Positions 34,801 to 64,000 of a DNA stretch of 64,000 bases are shown piece after piece. The translations under genes were made by a program, and so were the position numbers. Each line of letters starts with the position of its first letter. Positions within the stretch are counted from its first letter, which is position 1. Source of the stretch: an uncultured Bacteroidales bacterium (GTDB lineage Bacteria > Bacteroidota > Bacteroidia > Bacteroidales > F082); assembly GCA_900318265.1 (NCBI GenBank), contig ONKA01000005.1, positions 62,001 to 126,000 on the forward strand, given 5' to 3'. Below the pieces are notes generated by a model. The model saw only the letters and a list, made by a program, of their open reading frames with translations. It was not told the origin of the DNA and did not search any database.

Positions 34801-36476
34801 TGGCACAAGTAGACGACAAAAAAATCATCTTCTCGATGGTAGGCGTGAGCAAAATCATCCCGCCGTCGAGACAAATATTGAAAGACATCTACCTCTCCTT
34901 CTTCTATGGCGCCAAAATCGGCATCATCGGCTTGAACGGTGCAGGTAAATCCACCCTGCTGCGCATCATCGCGGGCAAGGAGAAATCCTATAACGGCGAG
35001 GTGGTCTTCTCGCCCGGCTATTCGGTCGGCATGCTCGACCAGGAGCCGCAACTCGACGACAACAAGACCGTTCGCCAAGTGGTAGAAGAAGGTGTGCAGG
35101 AAATCGTCGATATCCTCAAAGAATACGAGGAGATCAATAACAAGTTTGCCGAGCCCGACGCCGACTTCGACAAACTGATTGCACGCCAGGGCGAGCTGAC
35201 CGAACTCATCGAGCAACACGATGCTTGGGAACTTGACAACAAACTGGAACGCGCCATGGACGCACTCAACTGTCCCGATGGCGACACGCCTGTGTGCAAC
35301 CTCTCAGGAGGCGAGCGTCGCCGTGTGGCCCTTTGCCGTCTCCTGCTGCAAGAGCCCGACATCCTGCTCCTCGACGAGCCCACCAACCACCTCGATGCCG
35401 AGAGCATCCAGTGGTTGGAGAGCCACCTTCAACAATACAAGGGCACCGTCATCGCCGTCACCCACGACCGTTACTTCCTCGACCACGTGGCCGGCTGGAT
35501 TCTCGAACTCGACCGCGGCGAAGGCATCCCGTGGAAGGGCAACTACTCCTCGTGGCTCGACCAGAAGACCGCCCGCCTCGCCATGGAAGAGAAGACCGAG
35601 AGCAAGCGCCGCAAGACCCTTGAAAGAGAGTTGGAATGGGTGCGCATGGCGCCCAAGGCACGTCACGCCAAAGGCAAGGCCCGTCTGGAATCGTATGAGA
35701 AGATGCTCAACGAGGACGTAAAGGAGAAAGAAGAGAAACTCGAAATCTACATCCCCAATGGCGACCGTCTAGGAACGAAAGTCATCGAGGCGCATGACGT
35801 CACCAAGGCCTACGGTGACAAATTGTTGTTCGAAAATCTCAACTTCAGTCTGCCGCAAGGCGGCATCGTGGGCGTCATCGGTCCCAACGGCGCAGGCAAA
35901 ACCACGCTGTTCCGCCTTATTATGGGATTGGAGCAACCTGACTCTGGCACTTTTGAAGTCGGCGAGACCGTGAAGATTGGTTACGTCGACCAGCAGCATG
36001 CCGATATTGACCCTGAGAAGACCGTCTGGGAAGTCATCAGCGGCGGCAACGAACTCATCCAATTGGGCAAGCGTAGCATGAACTCGCGTGCCTACGTCTC
36101 CCGCTTCAACTTTGGCGGCAACGACCAGCAAAAGAAGGCCGGCGTGCTCTCGGGCGGTGAACGCAACCGCATGCACCTTGCCTTGACCCTGAAGCAGGAA
36201 GCCAACGTGCTCCTTTTGGACGAGCCCACCAACGACATCGATGTGAACACCCTCCGCGCCTTGGAGGAAGGCCTTGAAAACTTCGCAGGCTGTGCCGTCA
36301 TCATCAGCCACGACCGTTGGTTCCTCGACCGTGTGGCCACCCACATCCTCGCTTTCGAGGGCAACTCACAGGTTTATTTCTTTGAGGGTAGCTACTCGGA
36401 ATACGAAGAAAACAAAATGAAACGCCTCGGCAATGTCGAGCCCAAACGTTTCAGATACAAGAAGCTGAAAGAATAA
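34800..36476 (+). CDS. ettA: energy-dependent translational throttle protein EttA (ABC-F)
   Basis: A soluble ABC-F ATPase that binds the ribosomal E site and gates translation according to ATP level. It has 558 residues, matching EttA. Seen: the first ABC domain with GLNGAGKSTLLRIIAGKE (Walker A), LSGGERRRVALCRLLLQ and ILLLDEPTNHLDAESIQWLE; an arm/linker with ARLAMEEKTESKRRKTLE and MAPKARHAKGKARLESYEKM; and the second domain with GPNGAGKTTLFRLIMGLE, LSGGERNRMHLALTL and LLLDEPTNDIDVNTLRALEE. No membrane segments are present. It follows the glycosyltransferase by 9 nt. Confidence 0.95.
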   Translation: MAQVDDKKIIFSMVGVSKIIPPSRQILKDIYLSFFYGAKIGIIGLNGAGKSTLLRIIAGKEKSYNGEVVFSPGYSVGMLDQEPQLDDNKTVRQVVEEGVQEIVDILKEYEEINNKFAEPDADFDKLIARQGELTELIEQHDAWELDNKLERAMDALNCPDGDTPVCNLSGGERRRVALCRLLLQEPDILLLDEPTNHLDAESIQWLESHLQQYKGTVIAVTHDRYFLDHVAGWILELDRGEGIPWKGNYSSWLDQKTARLAMEEKTESKRRKTLERELEWVRMAPKARHAKGKARLESYEKMLNEDVKEKEEKLEIYIPNGDRLGTKVIEAHDVTKAYGDKLLFENLNFSLPQGGIVGVIGPNGAGKTTLFRLIMGLEQPDSGTFEVGETVKIGYVDQQHADIDPEKTVWEVISGGNELIQLGKRSMNSRAYVSRFNFGGNDQQKKAGVLSGGERNRMHLALTLKQEANVLLLDEPTNDIDVNTLRALEEGLENFAGCAVIISHDRWFLDRVATHILAFEGNSQVYFFEGSYSEYEENKMKRLGNVEPKRFRYKKLKE

Positions 36477-55553: not shown

Positions 55554-55589
55554 CAAAGTTAGAAATGTTTTGGGTTTATCGTATCTTTG
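55554..55589. promoter_or_regulatory. divergent -7 elements for the subtilase (minus) and M16 protease (plus) genes
   Basis: Minus: TAACTTTG at 55554-55561. Plus: TATCTTTG at 55582-55589. The M16 ATG is at 55608, only 18 nt past the plus element. Confidence 0.55.
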
Positions 55590-55607
55590 CAGCCCAATTT
55601 TTACCCC

Positions 55608-56849
55608 ATGTTGGAAAACAAATACAAAGAGTCCGTCCTCCCGAATGGCATTAGGCTGATACACAAGGAAAAACAAGGCGAAATCGCCCATTTGGTACTG
55701 ATGGTGGAGACCGGCACGCGCGATGAGGTGGCCCACGAAAACGGCCTCGCCCACTTTGTGGAACACACCATCTTCAAAGGCACGCAAAACCGCAAGGCAT
55801 ACCATATCCTGAGTTGCCTCGACAACGTAGGCGGCGACCTCAATGCTTTTACCACCAAGGAGGAGACCTGCCTGCAAGCCACCTTCCTCAAGCAACATTA
55901 TAAACGCAGCCTCGACCTCTTTGCCGACATCGCCTTCCGTTCCACCTTCCCCGAGAACGAGCTGGCCAAGGAAAAGGAAGTCATCTTGGACGAGATCAAC
56001 TCCTATCTGGATTCTCCCTCCGACGAGATCTATGATTTGTTTGAGGAGATGGTTTTCAAAGGACATCCTTTGGCACGCAACATATTGGGTACTACAGAGT
56101 TGGTAAAAGGATTCCATCGTCAGGACATCCTCGACTTCATGGCGCACAACTACAGCACCGACCAGATGATTTTAGCCTCCATCGGCGACATCAGCTTCAA
56201 GGAGTTCGAGCGGATGGCCATGACTTATTTTGGAAGCCAACCTGCACACATTATTAATAAGAAACGCGAAATCTTCGAAGGCTATAGACCCGAAAGTCGC
56301 ATCGACAAGCGCAACAACCATCTGAGCCACTGCATTATAGGTAACATCGCCCCCGAGTTCAGCAGCCCTATGCGCATGCCCATCGTCATGCTCAACAACG
56401 TGCTTGGCGGTCCAGCCATGAGTTCGCGTCTCGGCCTGAACATCCGAGAAAAATACGGTTTCGCCTACAGCATCGAGTCGCAATACACAGCCTATTCCGA
56501 CGTCGGTCTCATCAACGTCTATATGGGTGTCGACCCCGACTCGCTTGAACGCGCCATCGAGTTGGTCCATAAGGAATTGGACAAGCTCTGTACCCAAAAG
56601 TTAGGCACCCTACAGTTGCATCATGCCAAGCAGCAACTCATAGGGCAGGTGGCATTGAGCTACGAAAGTGGCATGAACGAGTTGCTGAGTGCGACGCGTT
56701 CGCTCATCATGGGCGAAGAAATCGAATACATGGATGATATCATACAAAAGGTAGAGGCCGTCAATGCGGAAGACATCCTGGAAGTGGCCAATCAAGTCTT
56801 CGACAAGAAACAGTTGAGTCGGATTGTTTTTGAAGGAGATACCCCGTAG
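55608..56849 (+). CDS. M16 family (insulinase-like) zinc metallopeptidase
   Basis: 413 residues from ATG at 55608 (MLENKYKESVLPNGIRLIHK). The inverted zinc motif HFVEH gives His49, Glu52 and His53, and the third ligand region is KEKEVILDEINSYLDSPSD (about residues 124-142). The C-terminal half has the second M16 fold with GGPAMSSRLGLNIREKYGFA and the family-typical YGFAYSIESQYT. No signal peptide is evident, so a cytoplasmic or processing-peptidase-like role is likely. The last codons are ACC CCG TAG: the stop lies within the first REP palindrome (56841-56854), so the ancestral C-terminus may have been altered. Confidence 0.93.
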   Translation: MLENKYKESVLPNGIRLIHKEKQGEIAHLVLMVETGTRDEVAHENGLAHFVEHTIFKGTQNRKAYHILSCLDNVGGDLNAFTTKEETCLQATFLKQHYKRSLDLFADIAFRSTFPENELAKEKEVILDEINSYLDSPSDEIYDLFEEMVFKGHPLARNILGTTELVKGFHRQDILDFMAHNYSTDQMILASIGDISFKEFERMAMTYFGSQPAHIINKKREIFEGYRPESRIDKRNNHLSHCIIGNIAPEFSSPMRMPIVMLNNVLGGPAMSSRLGLNIREKYGFAYSIESQYTAYSDVGLINVYMGVDPDSLERAIELVHKELDKLCTQKLGTLQLHHAKQQLIGQVALSYESGMNELLSATRSLIMGEEIEYMDDIIQKVEAVNAEDILEVANQVFDKKQLSRIVFEGDTP

Positions 56850-56974
56850 GGGTTCCCTTTTAATAACAAACAAACAACCATCAACACATTATAATTACCC
56901 CGTAGGGGTTTTCTATTCATAACCAACAGTACTCACATTACACTAATGACACTACCCCGTAGGGGTTTTCTATT
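56841..56974 (+). repeat. three upstream CCCCGTAGGGG palindromes
   Basis: Copies at 56841-56854, 56897-56917 and 56954-56974. The core is a 5-bp stem ACCCC/GGGGT with a GTA spacer, followed by TTTTCTATT in the last two; the first continues TTCCCTTTTAATAAC. The intervals (about 43 and 36 nt) differ in sequence. Confidence 0.88.
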
Positions 56975-56977
56975 AAG

Positions 56978-57439
56978 ATGGCAAACACATACAATCAAAT
57001 CTACATCCATTTGGTCTTCGCAGTAAAATTCCGCGATGCCGTCATCAACAAATCATGGCGACAAGAGCTTTACCAATACATTATCGGCCTAATTGCGAAC
57101 AGAGGCCACAAAGTTTATGCAATTGGTGGGATGAGCGACCATATCCACATCTTGGTGAGCCTTTCACCCAAACAAGCCATTTCGGAATTAGTGCTGGAAG
57201 TGAAAAGAGCTTCGTCATTGTGGATAAAAGAAAAACAATATGTTAGATGCCAATTCGCCTGGCAAGAAGGTTTTGGGGCTTTTTCATACAGCAAGTCACA
57301 GGTTGATAGCGTGGTGAAATACATTCAAAATCAAGAAGCTCATCATGCAAAACACACATTCAAGGATGAATATGTTTCGTTTCTTCAATTGTTTGGAATC
57401 GAATTTGATGAGAGATACATTTTTAAGGAAATGGCGTGA
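56978..57439 (+). CDS. REP-associated tyrosine transposase / IS200-like Y1 transposase
   Basis: A 153-residue single-strand DNA transposase of the Y1/HUH superfamily. Seen: YNQIYIHLVFAVKFRDAVIN at the N-terminus; the HUH motif His55-Ile-His57 in GGMSDHIHILVSL; WQEGFGAFSYSKSQVDSVV; and the probable nucleophile Tyr115 in VKYIQNQ (assigned by family pattern). The frame is intact, suggesting activity or recent loss of selection only. It is A/T-richer than most neighbours. It starts 4 nt after the third palindrome and stands alone without tnpB. An IS200 transposase that is still mobile is the alternative to a domesticated RAYT. Confidence 0.9.
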   Translation: MANTYNQIYIHLVFAVKFRDAVINKSWRQELYQYIIGLIANRGHKVYAIGGMSDHIHILVSLSPKQAISELVLEVKRASSLWIKEKQYVRCQFAWQEGFGAFSYSKSQVDSVVKYIQNQEAHHAKHTFKDEYVSFLQLFGIEFDERYIFKEMA

Positions 57440-57450
57440 CAATGTAAAAG

Positions 57451-57520
57451 AAAACCCCTATGGGGTAATACAAACAAAAAATGACACGAATCTATTATAA
57501 GAGAACCCCTACGGGGTACC
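57451..57520 (-). repeat. two downstream palindromes in opposite orientation
   Basis: Copies at 57451-57467 (CCCCTATGGGG, centre changed from GTA to ATA on the minus strand) and 57504-57520 (CCCCTACGGGG). Both are followed outward by a near-copy of TTTTCT on the minus strand. Confidence 0.88.
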
Positions 57521-57690
57521 AACCAAACTCCATATAAGCCATCTTAATAATAAAACTTAAAGCGGAAATTTTGAGATTAAAACAGAATTTTTATATTTAA
57601 ATCAAAATAATTTCCCAAAATGTACAAGTTTTTTCTCCGCTGACACATAGCAACTTATCCTATGTGACGAAAAATAGTTGAAAAAAATGC
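57521..57690. other. A/T-rich intergenic stretch with no gene seen
   Basis: Between the last palindrome and the next promoter. No open frame with coding character, RNA gene or repeat was recognised. With the surrounding palindromes and promoter, the whole gap 57440-57858 is non-coding. Confidence 0.6.
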
Positions 57691-57721
57691 TTGACAAAGC
57701 TTATTTCAGATTGTAGTTTTG
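57691..57721 (+). promoter_or_regulatory. promoter for the 504-residue T9SS protein gene
   Basis: TTGACA (-33) at 57691-57696 and TAGTTTTG (-7) at 57714-57721, with 20 nt between the TTG and the -7 box. The leader is about 130 nt and A/T-rich. Confidence 0.6.
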
Positions 57722-57858
57722 CGATATAAAATGATAAAACAAACTATTAAAACGGAATAATTACGATTAAATTCACTTTCAAAATCATCAATCAGGCCAT
57801 CAAATTGATAACATGAAACAGACTTAACCGAATCATTCACCCACAAAAAACTAAAGCT

Positions 57859-59373
57859 ATGAAGACAAAATTTTACACCCTCCTCACTGGCCTGGTGATG
57901 GCCGCCTGCATCACGAGTTACGGACAGGAATTTGTCAACAGATTCTCCATCCAGGAACCCAACAGGATATTCATGGGATGCGACATTATGGAAAACCAAG
58001 ACGAGACGCTTTTAATCGGAGCGGTCAGCTGTACCAACCCCTACTACTATGACCCTGAATACCTGATTTACAAGACCACTCCCGAAGGCGAGATCCTCAA
58101 TTCTTTGAGCATCACCGCCCCTAACGGGATGAACGGTGAGTATTTTACCAACGTCTTAGACATTTGTGACAAACATTTCCTGCTTCGTAATGCCGCGGCT
58201 CCTGACTCGTACATTGTCGCCAATCACTATCGGGACATGGTCAACAACCATTATTTCAGGATGGTTAACACCGACGCCAACCTCAACGTAATTGATGATA
58301 TTTCCATTTTGGTTGATGAGGATTTTGAAGGTTCTTTCACCTGGGACAAATGGCTTATCGACTCACGAAACGATTTCATTATCTCGTTTTGGATCGACGA
58401 CGCGTTTCATCTCATGCGCATCGGACTTGATGGTACGGTCAAGACTCATCGTGAAATCACCGAAATCTATCCTCCCAAATTTGACTATGAGTACCACCCT
58501 GACACTGTATTGTGGTATTCTGGTTTTGGCATCTTCAATGAATCTCCCCTGACCTATTACAAATTAGGAAGTTATCAGACAGCAACGGAGAATTATCCTG
58601 TGCATTGCTATTTCTTCGATGAAGACCTCAACATTATTGGAGCACATTGGTTTGAACGCTACGACGAAGACATCCTTTTCAGCGGAGGCAACTCCGAGCA
58701 TATCATCCCCTTAGGCGAAAGTTCCTATCTGATGGCTTCGCAAATGGAGTACCCAAATGGCGATGCGGGGTCTGCCCTGATCAAATTTGACATGGACCTC
58801 AACCCGATTTGCATTTCACCGGAATTTGGGAACCTGGGGTATCCCTTTGACACCAAAATTACAAACGACAACAGCATCTTCCAATTATACGTCAACTTTG
58901 GAAACACCTCATGGCCCATGTCGTTGGCCTGCTTGGACAGTGAATTGCATCTGAATTGGGACATTGAATTACCAGGACTCCAGTACGACGGACTGAGCGG
59001 AAACAACATGATAGCCAAGGCAAATGGCGACATTGTTGTAGCATTTGGAGGCTCTAATGACTATGGAGCCAGCAATACTATCATTTATGTCTACACCATA
59101 CGCAACACTCCCGCAAACACCTCAGAAAAAACCATTTTCAGCACACCATACTCCCTCTACCCCAACCCCGTGAAAAACCAGCTGAACCTCCGCTTCGATG
59201 ACGGCGTTGAGCCCGAGAGCGTTGAACTTTATAACCTTGCTGGTTGCCTGGTTGCCACAAGGCGCAACAACATTCAAAGTATCGACATGAACAAGATGTC
59301 CTCCGGGGTATACACACTGCGCGTCACGATGAAAGACGGGACGAGCTACCATGAAAAGGTAATAAAAGAATAA
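57859..59373 (+). CDS. secreted protein with T9SS type A sorting domain, function unknown
   Basis: 504 residues. A signal peptide (MKTKFYTLLTGLVMAACITS, cleaved near YGQ) precedes a beta-rich body with repeated aromatic strands. These include LLIGAVSCTNPYYYDPEYLI, HLMRIGLDGTVKTHREI and YLMASQMEYPNGDAGSALIK, patterns that suggest a propeller or similar scaffold; I do not recognise an enzyme motif. The C-terminus is a T9SS type A domain: SLYPNPVKNQLNLRFDDG then MNKMSSGVYTLRVTMKDG. Base composition is lower in G+C than the neighbours. It lies just downstream of the transposase unit. Confidence 0.8.
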   Translation: MKTKFYTLLTGLVMAACITSYGQEFVNRFSIQEPNRIFMGCDIMENQDETLLIGAVSCTNPYYYDPEYLIYKTTPEGEILNSLSITAPNGMNGEYFTNVLDICDKHFLLRNAAAPDSYIVANHYRDMVNNHYFRMVNTDANLNVIDDISILVDEDFEGSFTWDKWLIDSRNDFIISFWIDDAFHLMRIGLDGTVKTHREITEIYPPKFDYEYHPDTVLWYSGFGIFNESPLTYYKLGSYQTATENYPVHCYFFDEDLNIIGAHWFERYDEDILFSGGNSEHIIPLGESSYLMASQMEYPNGDAGSALIKFDMDLNPICISPEFGNLGYPFDTKITNDNSIFQLYVNFGNTSWPMSLACLDSELHLNWDIELPGLQYDGLSGNNMIAKANGDIVVAFGGSNDYGASNTIIYVYTIRNTPANTSEKTIFSTPYSLYPNPVKNQLNLRFDDGVEPESVELYNLAGCLVATRRNNIQSIDMNKMSSGVYTLRVTMKDGTSYHEKVIKE

Positions 59374-59415: not shown

Positions 59416-59443
59416 GTAGAGACGGTGCATGCACCGTCTCTAC
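59416..59443. repeat. perfect 28-bp palindrome of the GTAGAGACG family
   Basis: The sequence is its own reverse complement (14+14), centred at 59429/59430 on GTGCATGCAC. It lies between convergent T9SS and purE genes. Same family as those at 62355, 62856 and 62899. Confidence 0.9.
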
Positions 59444-62288: not shown

Positions 62289-64000
62289 ATGAAACTGAAC
62301 AGGATATTAATAGGATGGTTTGTTTTGTTGGCCTTGGCCTCATGCCATGACCCTGTAGAGACGCGGCGCGCCACGTCTCTACAACCCGAGGTATCGCCCG
62401 AATTGTTGTATATCGACAGCCTAATGTGGTATCATCCAGACAGTGCCTTGATGCACCTGATTTATTATTTCAAACCCGATAGCGCGACCATCACCCTCTC
62501 CACAAGAACGGAATGCAACCAACGATATGCACACTTGCTACTGTCGGAATTGCTGTTTAAAAATGGTTATCCACAAACCAACCGAGAAAATCTATTGTGG
62601 TCAGTAGATTATTTTGATTCGTTAACAATGGTGAAAATACACGGGACGGACACACGCGGTGTGTCCCTACAGACCGCATCGGATTGTAGGAACGCATCAA
62701 ATGCGTCCGCCCAAAACATGTCCCCAAATAATGTATTTTTGTCCGCCCGCGCCCATTATATGAATGGCGTTGGCTATCTGGAACACGACAGCATCATCGA
62801 GGCCTACAACGAATACATCCGCGCCTTGGAAATCATGGAAACGCATTTCCCAATTGTAGAGACGTTGCGTGCAACGTCTCAAAACACGACATCAAAAAAG
62901 ACGTTGCACGCAACGTCTCTACACATCATACCCCACCTTCCTCGTTTCATGATGCTGATCCATTGCCGTCTCGGCGGCCTGTTTTCCGACCAATACATGC
63001 AGGAACCTGCCCTCTATTGTTTCAAAAAAGCACTCGTTTTCAACAGATTGGAACCTATTTTCCTAGACGATTATCCCAAATCGTTGTATTACATTGGGTT
63101 GCAATACGACAAACTACAGCAATGGGACAGTGCGCAAAACTATTACGATGAAGCACTTCGCCTGCTACCCGACACAAGCAACTGGCTTTTCAAATGTCTG
63201 ATGGCAAACAAGGCCAACCTCAATTATGCTTCAAGTGAGGACGTTGAACCCGCCGTGAGCAACTTGAAACGCATTGCGGCGAAAGCCGATTCCTACGAAA
63301 AGCCATGGCATTTCTTCCTCATTGGGCAGATTTATTACAACGAAAAACAATATGACTCAGCCTTGGTTTATCTGGAACCAACCTTTGAACAAAGCAAGAA
63401 CATTGAAACCAAAGCCCTGGTAGCCAAGTTCTTGCACGACATTTACCAAAGTCGAGGCGACACATTGGAGGCCTCGCAATATGCGGTCTATCATGCGGAA
63501 CACACGGAACAAGAAAGGGTGAAAATGGCGCGGGTTTCATACCTCAACGAACTGTTTCAGAAACATTTGCAAAAAGAACAAGAAGCCAAATTGCTCATTG
63601 AGAAGAAAAAGAAAATCAGAACATGGCTCATTGTGGGATTGCCTTTGGCTGTGATAGTATCGGTTTCTGTGGTGGTCGTAGTTCGGCGAAGAAACCGAAA
63701 ACGTTTGGCAGCGCAAGAAGCCTACGCCAAACGCCAGTTGAATGAAGTCCAACAACGCCACGACGAGGCAGAACGTGAGTTGCAAGCCAAGATGGAACAA
63801 GCCGCACAACACACGCGGGAAGTACTGCAACAGCGCGCCATGACGATTTACCAATCGGGCAGCGAGAACCGCTTGAAACAGATTTTGGCGGAATTTGAGG
63901 CCGTCTATCCGAAAGCCATGCCCGAATTGATCTCCACACATCCCGAATTGAGCGAAACAGAATGTCATATCGCCATACTCAATTTCCTTCGTTTCCGAGC
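62289..64000 (+). CDS. TPR membrane regulator with coiled coil and start of LuxR-like HTH (partial)
   Basis: Open from ATG at 62289 to the window edge (570 codons; the 3' end is outside). A lipobox-like N-terminus (LIGWFVLLALASC, Cys19) is followed by TPR-like helices (NGVGYLEHDSIIEAYNEYIR, YYIGLQYDKLQQWDSAQNYY, FFLIGQIYYNEKQYDSALVY). A membrane segment (about 443-465, WLIVGLPLAVIVSVSVVVVV) and a Glu/Gln-rich coiled coil (about 466-520) come next. The visible end is HPELSETECHIAILNFLRFR, the start of a LuxR/sigma-like HTH seen in similar Bacteroidota regulators. Three palindrome clusters (62355, 62643, 62856) lie inside the frame without breaking it. Confidence 0.82.
   Translation, partial: MKLNRILIGWFVLLALASCHDPVETRRATSLQPEVSPELLYIDSLMWYHPDSALMHLIYYFKPDSATITLSTRTECNQRYAHLLLSELLFKNGYPQTNRENLLWSVDYFDSLTMVKIHGTDTRGVSLQTASDCRNASNASAQNMSPNNVFLSARAHYMNGVGYLEHDSIIEAYNEYIRALEIMETHFPIVETLRATSQNTTSKKTLHATSLHIIPHLPRFMMLIHCRLGGLFSDQYMQEPALYCFKKALVFNRLEPIFLDDYPKSLYYIGLQYDKLQQWDSAQNYYDEALRLLPDTSNWLFKCLMANKANLNYASSEDVEPAVSNLKRIAAKADSYEKPWHFFLIGQIYYNEKQYDSALVYLEPTFEQSKNIETKALVAKFLHDIYQSRGDTLEASQYAVYHAEHTEQERVKMARVSYLNELFQKHLQKEQEAKLLIEKKKKIRTWLIVGLPLAVIVSVSVVVVVRRRNRKRLAAQEAYAKRQLNEVQQRHDEAERELQAKMEQAAQHTREVLQQRAMTIYQSGSENRLKQILAEFEAVYPKAMPELISTHPELSETECHIAILNFLRFR
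62355..62382. repeat. GTAGAGACG-family palindrome inside the TPR gene, cluster 1
   Basis: One mismatch in 14+14. In frame it encodes VETRRATSL just after the lipobox. Confidence 0.88.
62643..62707. repeat. paired palindromes inside the TPR gene, cluster 2
   Basis: GGACACAC/GTGTGTCC (62648-62666) around GCG, and GGAACGCAT/ATGCGTCC (near 62688-62707) around CAA. In frame they encode parts of GTDTRGVSLQ and RNASNASAQ. Confidence 0.82.
62856..62922. repeat. two GTAGAGACG-family palindromes inside the TPR gene, cluster 3
   Basis: GTAGAGACGTTGCGTGCAAC... (62856-62880) and its partner ending CAACGTCTCTAC (62899-62922), 18 nt apart, each near-palindromic and together forming a larger inverted repeat. 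In frame they encode VETLRATS and TLHATSL. Confidence 0.9.

Follow-up and report, generated by a model that had tools for sequence, protein, structure and literature searches.

A Y1 HUH transposase gene in the window (the whole 64-kb stretch of DNA analysed here), from an uncultured and probably ruminal bacterium, lies between mirror-image arrays of short hairpins, and gene and arrays probably make up a REPtron-like system (estimated probability about 0.7) based on a transposase of the IS200 lineage (class 1, subclass 1.2), by which the hairpins would be multiplied. This reading draws on the architecture of the locus, its recurrence across kin of the enzyme, a recurrent hairpin unit, arrays that differ from species to species, copies dispersed in genomes, an insertion for which empty sites exist, and purifying selection. 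The first-pass annotation had described a lone transposase in a REPtron arrangement; this arrangement is confirmed and is found again in kin, and the genome has a single transposase of this type to accompany it. REPs are common in bacteria, and their spread and the retention of their transposases are unsettled. If the IS200 branch has a parallel system, with a different hairpin unit and visible empty sites, it would offer a test of which features turn a transposase into a hairpin-multiplying resident rather than an insertion sequence. It would also mean that subclass 1.2, until now described without REPs, has a role.

The transposase gene (tnpA, 56978..57439, +) is an ORF of 153 aa with the motifs DHIH, WQ and YIQNQEAHH, of the TnpAY1 subclass 1.2 type. 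Its upstream neighbour is an M16 peptidase gene (55587..56849, +), at the 3' end of which the array begins in six species. The upstream array (56841..56977, +) contains three hairpins of the form ACCCC(GTA)GGGGT, spaced by 56 and 57 bp: U1 (56841..56853, +), U2 (56897..56909, +), which is followed by TTTCTATTCATAAC, and U3 (56954..56966, +), which ends 11 nt before the ATG. In four syntenic kin the upstream spacing is 50-54 bp, except for one step of 115. The downstream array (57440..57520, -) is inverted relative to the upstream one and contains two hairpins with a spacing of 51 bp, reading on the minus strand ACCCC(ATA)GGGGT (D1, 57454..57466) and ACCCC(GTA)GGGGT (D2, 57505..57517). The M16 peptidase gene ends within U1, which provides its stop codon (TAG, 56847-56849), a feature absent from the first-pass annotation. 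The three upstream and two downstream core copies in mirror orientation that had been described there are confirmed, as is the ATA centre of one downstream copy on the minus strand (57455-57465). Of the 11-bp core with a TTTTCTATT tail, the core stands, and the tail is exact in only two of the five copies, the rest having TTCCCTTTT, TTTTCTTTT and TTCTCTTAT. The nearest copies had been placed 3 nt upstream and 11 nt downstream of the coding region; measured from the 11-bp cores, the distances are 12 nt to the ATG and 15 nt from the stop codon, and the upstream figure is true only when the tail is counted in.

With at most one mismatch, CCCCGTAGGGG has five matches in the 64-kb window, all at tnpA (56842, 56898 and 56955 on the plus strand, 57455 and 57506 on the minus strand), compared with a mean of 0.62 and a maximum of 4 in 100 dinucleotide shuffles of the window, so that five was never reached. 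Each hairpin has a 5-bp stem and a 3-nt loop, with a predicted single-stranded DNA fold of -3.7 kcal/mol. Taken singly, the hairpins do not clearly exceed their own shuffles in stability (z -0.8 to -1.4); stability was therefore dropped as evidence, and repetition is the striking feature. A search of Rfam gave no matches in 56500-57900, and an RNA family identity was rejected.

The window protein matches Pfam Y1_Tnp with 99.8 bits. H55, H57, Y115, Q119, H122 and H123 are invariant in an alignment of 28 sequences (the window protein included), and the HIH motif at 55-57 and Tyr115 had thus been correctly recognised. The NCBIfam IS200 model is passed (74.1 bits, cut-off 55) and REP_Tyr_transpos is missed (25.1 bits, cut-off 80), and the Y motif is Y---Q--HH, as opposed to the Y---NP of class 2. 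In a tree of 38 proteins, the class 2 proteins (n=5, given this label from their Y---NP motif) separate with a support of 100, and seven annotated IS200 proteins form one clade (support 99) that joins the distant (C19-like) kin of the window protein with a support of 38-77, so that subclass 1.2 may or may not be a single clade separate from IS200 subclass 1.1. The RAYT identity proposed in the first-pass annotation is therefore not borne out by the HMM and tree comparisons that it had itself suggested, and these rule out membership of RAYT class 2. The nearest solved structures by sequence are ISDra2 and IS608 TnpA; 11 solved-structure sequences match at E<=10, and the RAYT of E. coli is absent from them. 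An AlphaFold2 model of the transposase (mean pLDDT 90.7) was built from an alignment that excluded L076 and L086, which have in-frame stops, plus L100 and L113. In Foldseek, the lowest E-value belongs to ISDra2 (1.4e-8), IS608 comes next, and 4er8, a RAYT structure, reaches 4.8e-5. Superposition on the model gives 3.1 Å for 4er8 and 5.0-13.8 Å for the listed IS chains; IS transposases swap a helix between subunits, and a monomer model thus cannot discriminate between IS and RAYT. By its motifs, HMM scores, position in the tree and nearest solved structures, the window protein is placed on the IS200 side, as a TnpAY1 of subclass 1.2.

Subclass 1.2, first characterised by Quentin et al. 2018 by their own account (PMC6006769), is described there by Y---Q--HH, low copy number and an occurrence in Cyanobacteria and Bacteroidetes, and the table of that paper has a 'no' under REP. 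The protein resembles that description in DH[IV]H, WQ and Y---Q--HH, all three of which it carries, in a length of about 150 aa, in low copy number and in its host phylum Bacteroidetes (PMC6006769, description of the subclass). Y...Q..HH is carried by 95 of the 104 kin loci described below (91 of 99 distinct proteins). The window genome has four Y1 genes, none of them near-identical to the window gene; the closest relative is 42% identical, and no near-identical second copy of tnpA was found in this MAG, which is 89% complete. Plasmid and phage collections yielded only kin below 60% identity. Unlike the REP entry 'no' in the table of PMC6006769, arrays here stand beside most sampled members (85 of 99 enriched). 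The automatic REP search described by Quentin et al. 2018 (PMC6006769) required a GT[AG]G foot and a stem of 7-20 bp, and footless 5-bp stems would thus be missed. No report of REPs of subclass 1.2 was found in the open-access literature searched.

To place the arrays among kin, 104 tnpA loci were compiled, 80 from a scan of genome contigs plus the loci of a 60-genome genus search; these kin were picked by similarity to the query and are mostly from Bacteroidota MAGs. Removal of five loci with duplicate proteins left 99, including that of the window. With hairpins defined by a stem of at least 5 and a loop of 3-5, in 300 bp per side and with 100 shuffles per locus, 475 hairpins were observed in the flanks, compared with 54 expected from shuffles, and 85 of the 99 loci are enriched at p<=0.05 (about five by chance alone). 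A control gene was obtainable in 58 of the 99 loci, and its flanks hold 45 hairpins versus 263 in the tnpA flanks of the same 58. At least three hairpins are found at 79 of 99 tnpA loci versus four of 58 controls. Fourteen of the 99 loci are without enrichment, and L114, L122 and L124 have no hairpins; the last two are the two cyanobacterial loci, in agreement with 'no REP' for that phylum. In looser comparisons, six of seven annotated plasmid IS200 loci have at most one upstream hairpin, a repeated stem family was seen at none of the seven, and three of four class 2 genes have zero hairpins by the same criterion.

The inner stem tracks protein similarity (Mantel r 0.394, 0/999 permutations, 55 loci) and is identical in 91% of 46 pairs with at least 80% protein identity, a correlation that would also arise from common descent alone. 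Over the 60 genus genomes, the number of Y1 kin correlates with the number of RCCCCRTAGGGGY (rho 0.69), the density of which has a median of 2.07 per Mb in the 42 genomes with Y1 kin and of 0 in the 18 without; these counts take in copies beside genes and those of other Y1 genes. The same genomes hold 341 palindromes versus five in a reversed-pattern control. Shared ancestry accounts for part of both correlations. Hairpins are a feature of the enzyme family and not of the window locus alone, which suggests that an enzyme group recorded without REP-like hairpins may copy or move them. At L027 and L029, which encode related proteins, CCCC(ATC)GGGG is repeated beside tnpA (seven and four copies), with the loop ATC and not GTA.

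Read towards the gene, the loops of the 475 hairpins are most commonly GTA (108), with 48 GAA and 32 TAC. GTA-type loops are present in 60 loci, and 226 hairpins from these were profiled; having been selected for a GTA-type loop, they carry no evidence on the loop itself. Their stems vary, C-G closes the loop in 94%, and conserved positions of the 3' tail are +9 to +13 (A/C-T-A-T-T) and +15 to +18 (GTAG-like). No conservation was seen 5' of these 226 hairpins of 60 loci, and the GT[AG]G 5' foot of RAYT palindromes is thus missing; for canonical REPs, PMC8266576 and PMC2817692 describe GTAG at the 5' foot. Inward-facing hairpins predominate on both sides (79 vs 21 upstream, n=100; 81 vs 25 downstream, n=106), and the nearest hairpin faces inward in 43 of 51 loci upstream and 40 of 44 downstream. 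Where GTA-type loops are present on both sides, 26 of 35 loci are mirror-image and nine are not. Units within one array are barely more similar to each other (mean identity 0.69) than are same-side units of different species (0.65). Alternate units at L048 are identical or nearly so, as if doublets had been duplicated. Downstream of tnpA at L052, ACCCC(TNAC-type)GGGGT alternates with GCTCC(GTA)GGAGC in opposite orientation and with a 60-bp period, which ties both stems to one transposase.

Gene and arrays are found behind the M16 gene at the same spot in six species (the window, RUG13948, Tb.RUG.400, RUG11296, RUG14460 and RUG358). Within 350 bp of the gene, the five named MAGs carry 2-5 perfect upstream hairpins and 2-7 downstream ones. 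Mean dN/dS is 0.041 for tnpA (15 pairs), 0.060 for M16 (15 pairs) and 0.030 for purE (10 pairs, from five of the six species), the ratios being rough because dS is about 0.9 for tnpA and M16. These values indicate that tnpA is under strong purifying selection. In the wider genus, the M16 gene is present in 58 of 60 genomes searched, and among the 30 loci read, three have tnpA with arrays, two have hairpins only (one of them with a mutated first hairpin), and the remaining 25 lack both, although a single hairpin of a different kind is present within 170 bp at two of them. Occupancy by tnpA is patchy on a tree of 29 M16 genes, and loss, gain and exchange are thus indistinguishable.

A hairpins-only site (L220) and one with tnpA (L051) share flanks of 97% (1.4 kb) and 95% (1.5 kb) identity and differ by a stretch between two same-orientation hairpins: in a single event, the gene plus its inverted arrays was gained or lost. 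Both this difference and the turnover of arrays could be due to ordinary direct-repeat recombination. The claim that the transposase does not move itself thus stands in part: the locus is fixed in six species, but across the genus the gene has a patchy distribution. In one genome pair it came or went between two direct hairpins, and 3' remnants of such a gene are present in two dispersed elements of a relative (G079). At L231, in G033, a palindrome GTAGAGACGTAGCGCGCTACGTCTCTAC lies just after the M16 gene, about where the window has its hairpin array, so that two REP types may share one spot.

The exact 16-mer of core and tail has two matches in the window genome, both at the tnpA locus. A 20-mer with at most two mismatches has eight, five at the locus and three elsewhere, versus one in a reversed-pattern control. 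No second copy of the exact window unit was found elsewhere in this genome (MAG 89% complete), and the genome scan called for in the first-pass annotation thus found the exact family at this locus only, the outcome named there as speaking against a RAYT-REP system. Dispersal is seen instead for what appear to be cousin hairpins. One of the three off-locus matches sits in an element of about 111 bp on contig C27 of the window genome (G000; about 35018-35128), which consists of two direct hairpins GCTCC(GTA)GGAGC with a similar tail and starts 5 nt after the stop of an open reading frame. This element has further matches, 74-110 bp long, on C34 of the same genome and in G002, G074, G075, G076 and G077. 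The C27 site was found in 10 of 12 genomes searched: the element is present in G000, G073 and G075 and absent from G021, G043, G074, G076 and G077, and two more sites are unalignable on the right. No target duplication is evident at the C27 doublet. Its stem is CTCC and not the CCCC of the window, and the putative link between doublet and enzyme draws on the loop and tail that they have in common and on the L052 array, in which a single tnpA has both stems beside it.

Many dispersed copies of the same palindrome, as in a REPtron, were not found in the window genome for the exact family, and are found in the relatives G079 and G065. In G079, the tnpA of which is 80% identical, there are 29 matches versus one in the control; 10 surround tnpA, and the remaining 19 are spread over nine sites away from it. 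None of 26 hairpins in the nine stretches that were read lies in ORFs, which cover a quarter of these stretches. Two dispersed elements keep 3' tnpA remnants (scores 62 and 44 vs 38 and 33 for the best of 300 shuffles). G065, in which one Y1 gene was found, has 15 palindromes, four on the contig of the gene and 11 on six others. Four composite elements read in this genome, about 150 bp long, carry oppositely oriented hairpins, and none of 11 lies in ORFs, which cover 0.75 of the stretches. For other sets, two of 10 hairpins of the C19 type and one of 15 in the CTCC doublets lie in ORFs. The GTCCC-type core occurs in 11 of 13 genomes searched, nine of which have 1-3 copies, G066 11 and G065 15.

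In the REPtron-like reading, the enzyme would recognise a short hairpin as single-stranded DNA, with a variable stem, a mostly GTA-type loop and an AT-rich 3' tail often ending GTAG-like, and would cut and rejoin strands near it, the cleavage and its site being conjectural. Its substrates would be hairpin units of about 52 nt, multiplying beside the gene, often two at once, and at times inserting elsewhere; doublets may have been moved by the window enzyme rather than by a relative. The gene itself would mostly stay in place, and at times be gained or lost between two same-orientation hairpins. Speaking against this reading are the 14 loci without enrichment, the modest share of GTA among the loops (108 of 475), the nine loci that are not mirror-image, the near-equal likeness of units within and between arrays, and the failure to find the exact unit elsewhere in the window genome. 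A broader proposal is that palindrome multiplication arose a second time, on the IS200 side, in subclass 1.2 across Bacteroidota, with an own hairpin family for each enzyme, a GTAG signal in loop and 3' tail, and a mobile direct doublet landing behind stop codons. The chances of this are judged to be even.

An unlikely alternative is that the locus moves whole, as an IS200-like insertion sequence whose ends are unusual in having several hairpins, the dispersed hairpins being MITE-like deletion derivatives. The IS200-side protein, the patchily occupied M16 site, the 3' tnpA ends retained in two dispersed G079 elements, and L220 without the stretch that L051 has between same-orientation hairpins (with the 97% and 95% identical flanks) all speak for such an element. 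However, there is no near-identical second gene in its own genome, where the next of four Y1 genes is 42% identical, the same locus is occupied in six species, and the gene is under strong purifying selection. The ends of IS200/IS605 elements have one subterminal hairpin each, on the same strand, unlike the inverted arrays on two sides here. Mobility as a unit has one copy in the window genome and one locus in six species to contend with, yet gain or loss of the gene unit and remnants are seen.

A role of the hairpins as terminators or insulators that block read-through into tnpA, or as passive tandem repeats, in either case unrelated to the chemistry of the enzyme, is improbable. The five terminator-like sites in 56500-57900 (1.2 expected) are the five hairpins, pointing inward from both sides, as such a role would have it. 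But the tails in kin are A/T-mixed, often with a GTAG-like end, and not a T run, stems change along with the protein, and similar doublets are inserted elsewhere, with empty sites known; a terminator-only role was rejected on these grounds. Least probable of all, and hardly tenable, is the reading first proposed, in which the gene is a canonical class 2 TnpAREP (RAYT) and the hairpins are its REPs. Inverted palindromes do adjoin a lone Y1 gene, and 4er8, a RAYT structure, can be aligned with the model (Foldseek E 4.8e-5, 3.1 Å), but the REP_Tyr_transpos score is far under its cut-off, class 2 proteins split off with a support of 100, the hairpins have no conserved GTAG/GTGG foot on their 5' side, and NP is absent from the Y motif.

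The REPtron-like system favoured here shares with RAYT/TnpAREP REPtrons, as these are portrayed in PMC2817692 and PMC8266576, a lone gene, inverted flanking palindromes, a separate palindrome family for each enzyme, copies that are dispersed in some of the genomes, and a concentration near the gene as reported for Marinomonas. It differs from them (same sources) in an IS200-side protein, in a GTAG that spans loop and stem and is often present in the 3' tail rather than at the 5' foot, and in units that are often direct doublets. The window gene is well conserved, whereas rayt genes are reported as faster-evolving than their neighbours. TnpAY1 subclass 2.6 (RAYT group 5), in the account of PMC6006769, is likewise from Bacteroidetes and has atypical flanking hairpins with copies elsewhere, but is a class 2 protein with a Y---NP motif. 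CGTC-tagged repeats are dispersed palindromes with Bacteroidetes among the hosts reported in PMC3733652; unlike the window hairpins, they have stems of 8-9 bp and loops of 4-5, and are reported there without association to a transposase gene. The stem length given in that paper rules them out as the identity of the window hairpins. With IS200/IS605 elements (ISDra2, IS608), the window system shares the catalytic core, and these provide the nearest solved structures. It differs in three plus two mirror-image hairpins versus one hairpin per end, and is without sign of recent copying as a unit.

Other Y1 genes of the window genome also have palindromes of their own. A second gene of subclass 1.2 type (G000:C19:32883-33335, L014) encodes a protein with YIFGQAEHH, 42% identical to that of the window. 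Its hairpin type GCCCCGTAGGGGC, with a GACAG flank, is dispersed in the window genome (10 hairpins in seven stretches read). The dispersed GCCCCGTAGGGGC was rejected as a member of the window family, sharing by eye the flank CCGCCTGCTTA...GTC with the hairpin beside the C19 gene. The Y1 genes at G000:C7:41628-42071 (L015) and G000:C17:151577-151807 (L016) have, by eye, adjoining palindromes (CCCCACATGCAGTGTGGGG and GTCAGTCGGCCCGACT-like, respectively), and the C17 protein groups as class 2 (RAYT-like) in the tree. Finally, a palindrome GTAGAGACG...CGTCTCTAC occurs in the window at 59416-59443, 62355-62382, 62856-62883 and 62895-62922, the last two being half-copies face to face. It resembles a double-foot REP that Quentin et al. 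2018 assign to subclass 2.4 in their description (PMC6006769), and has 33 sites genome-wide with at most three mismatches, versus none in a reversed-pattern control.
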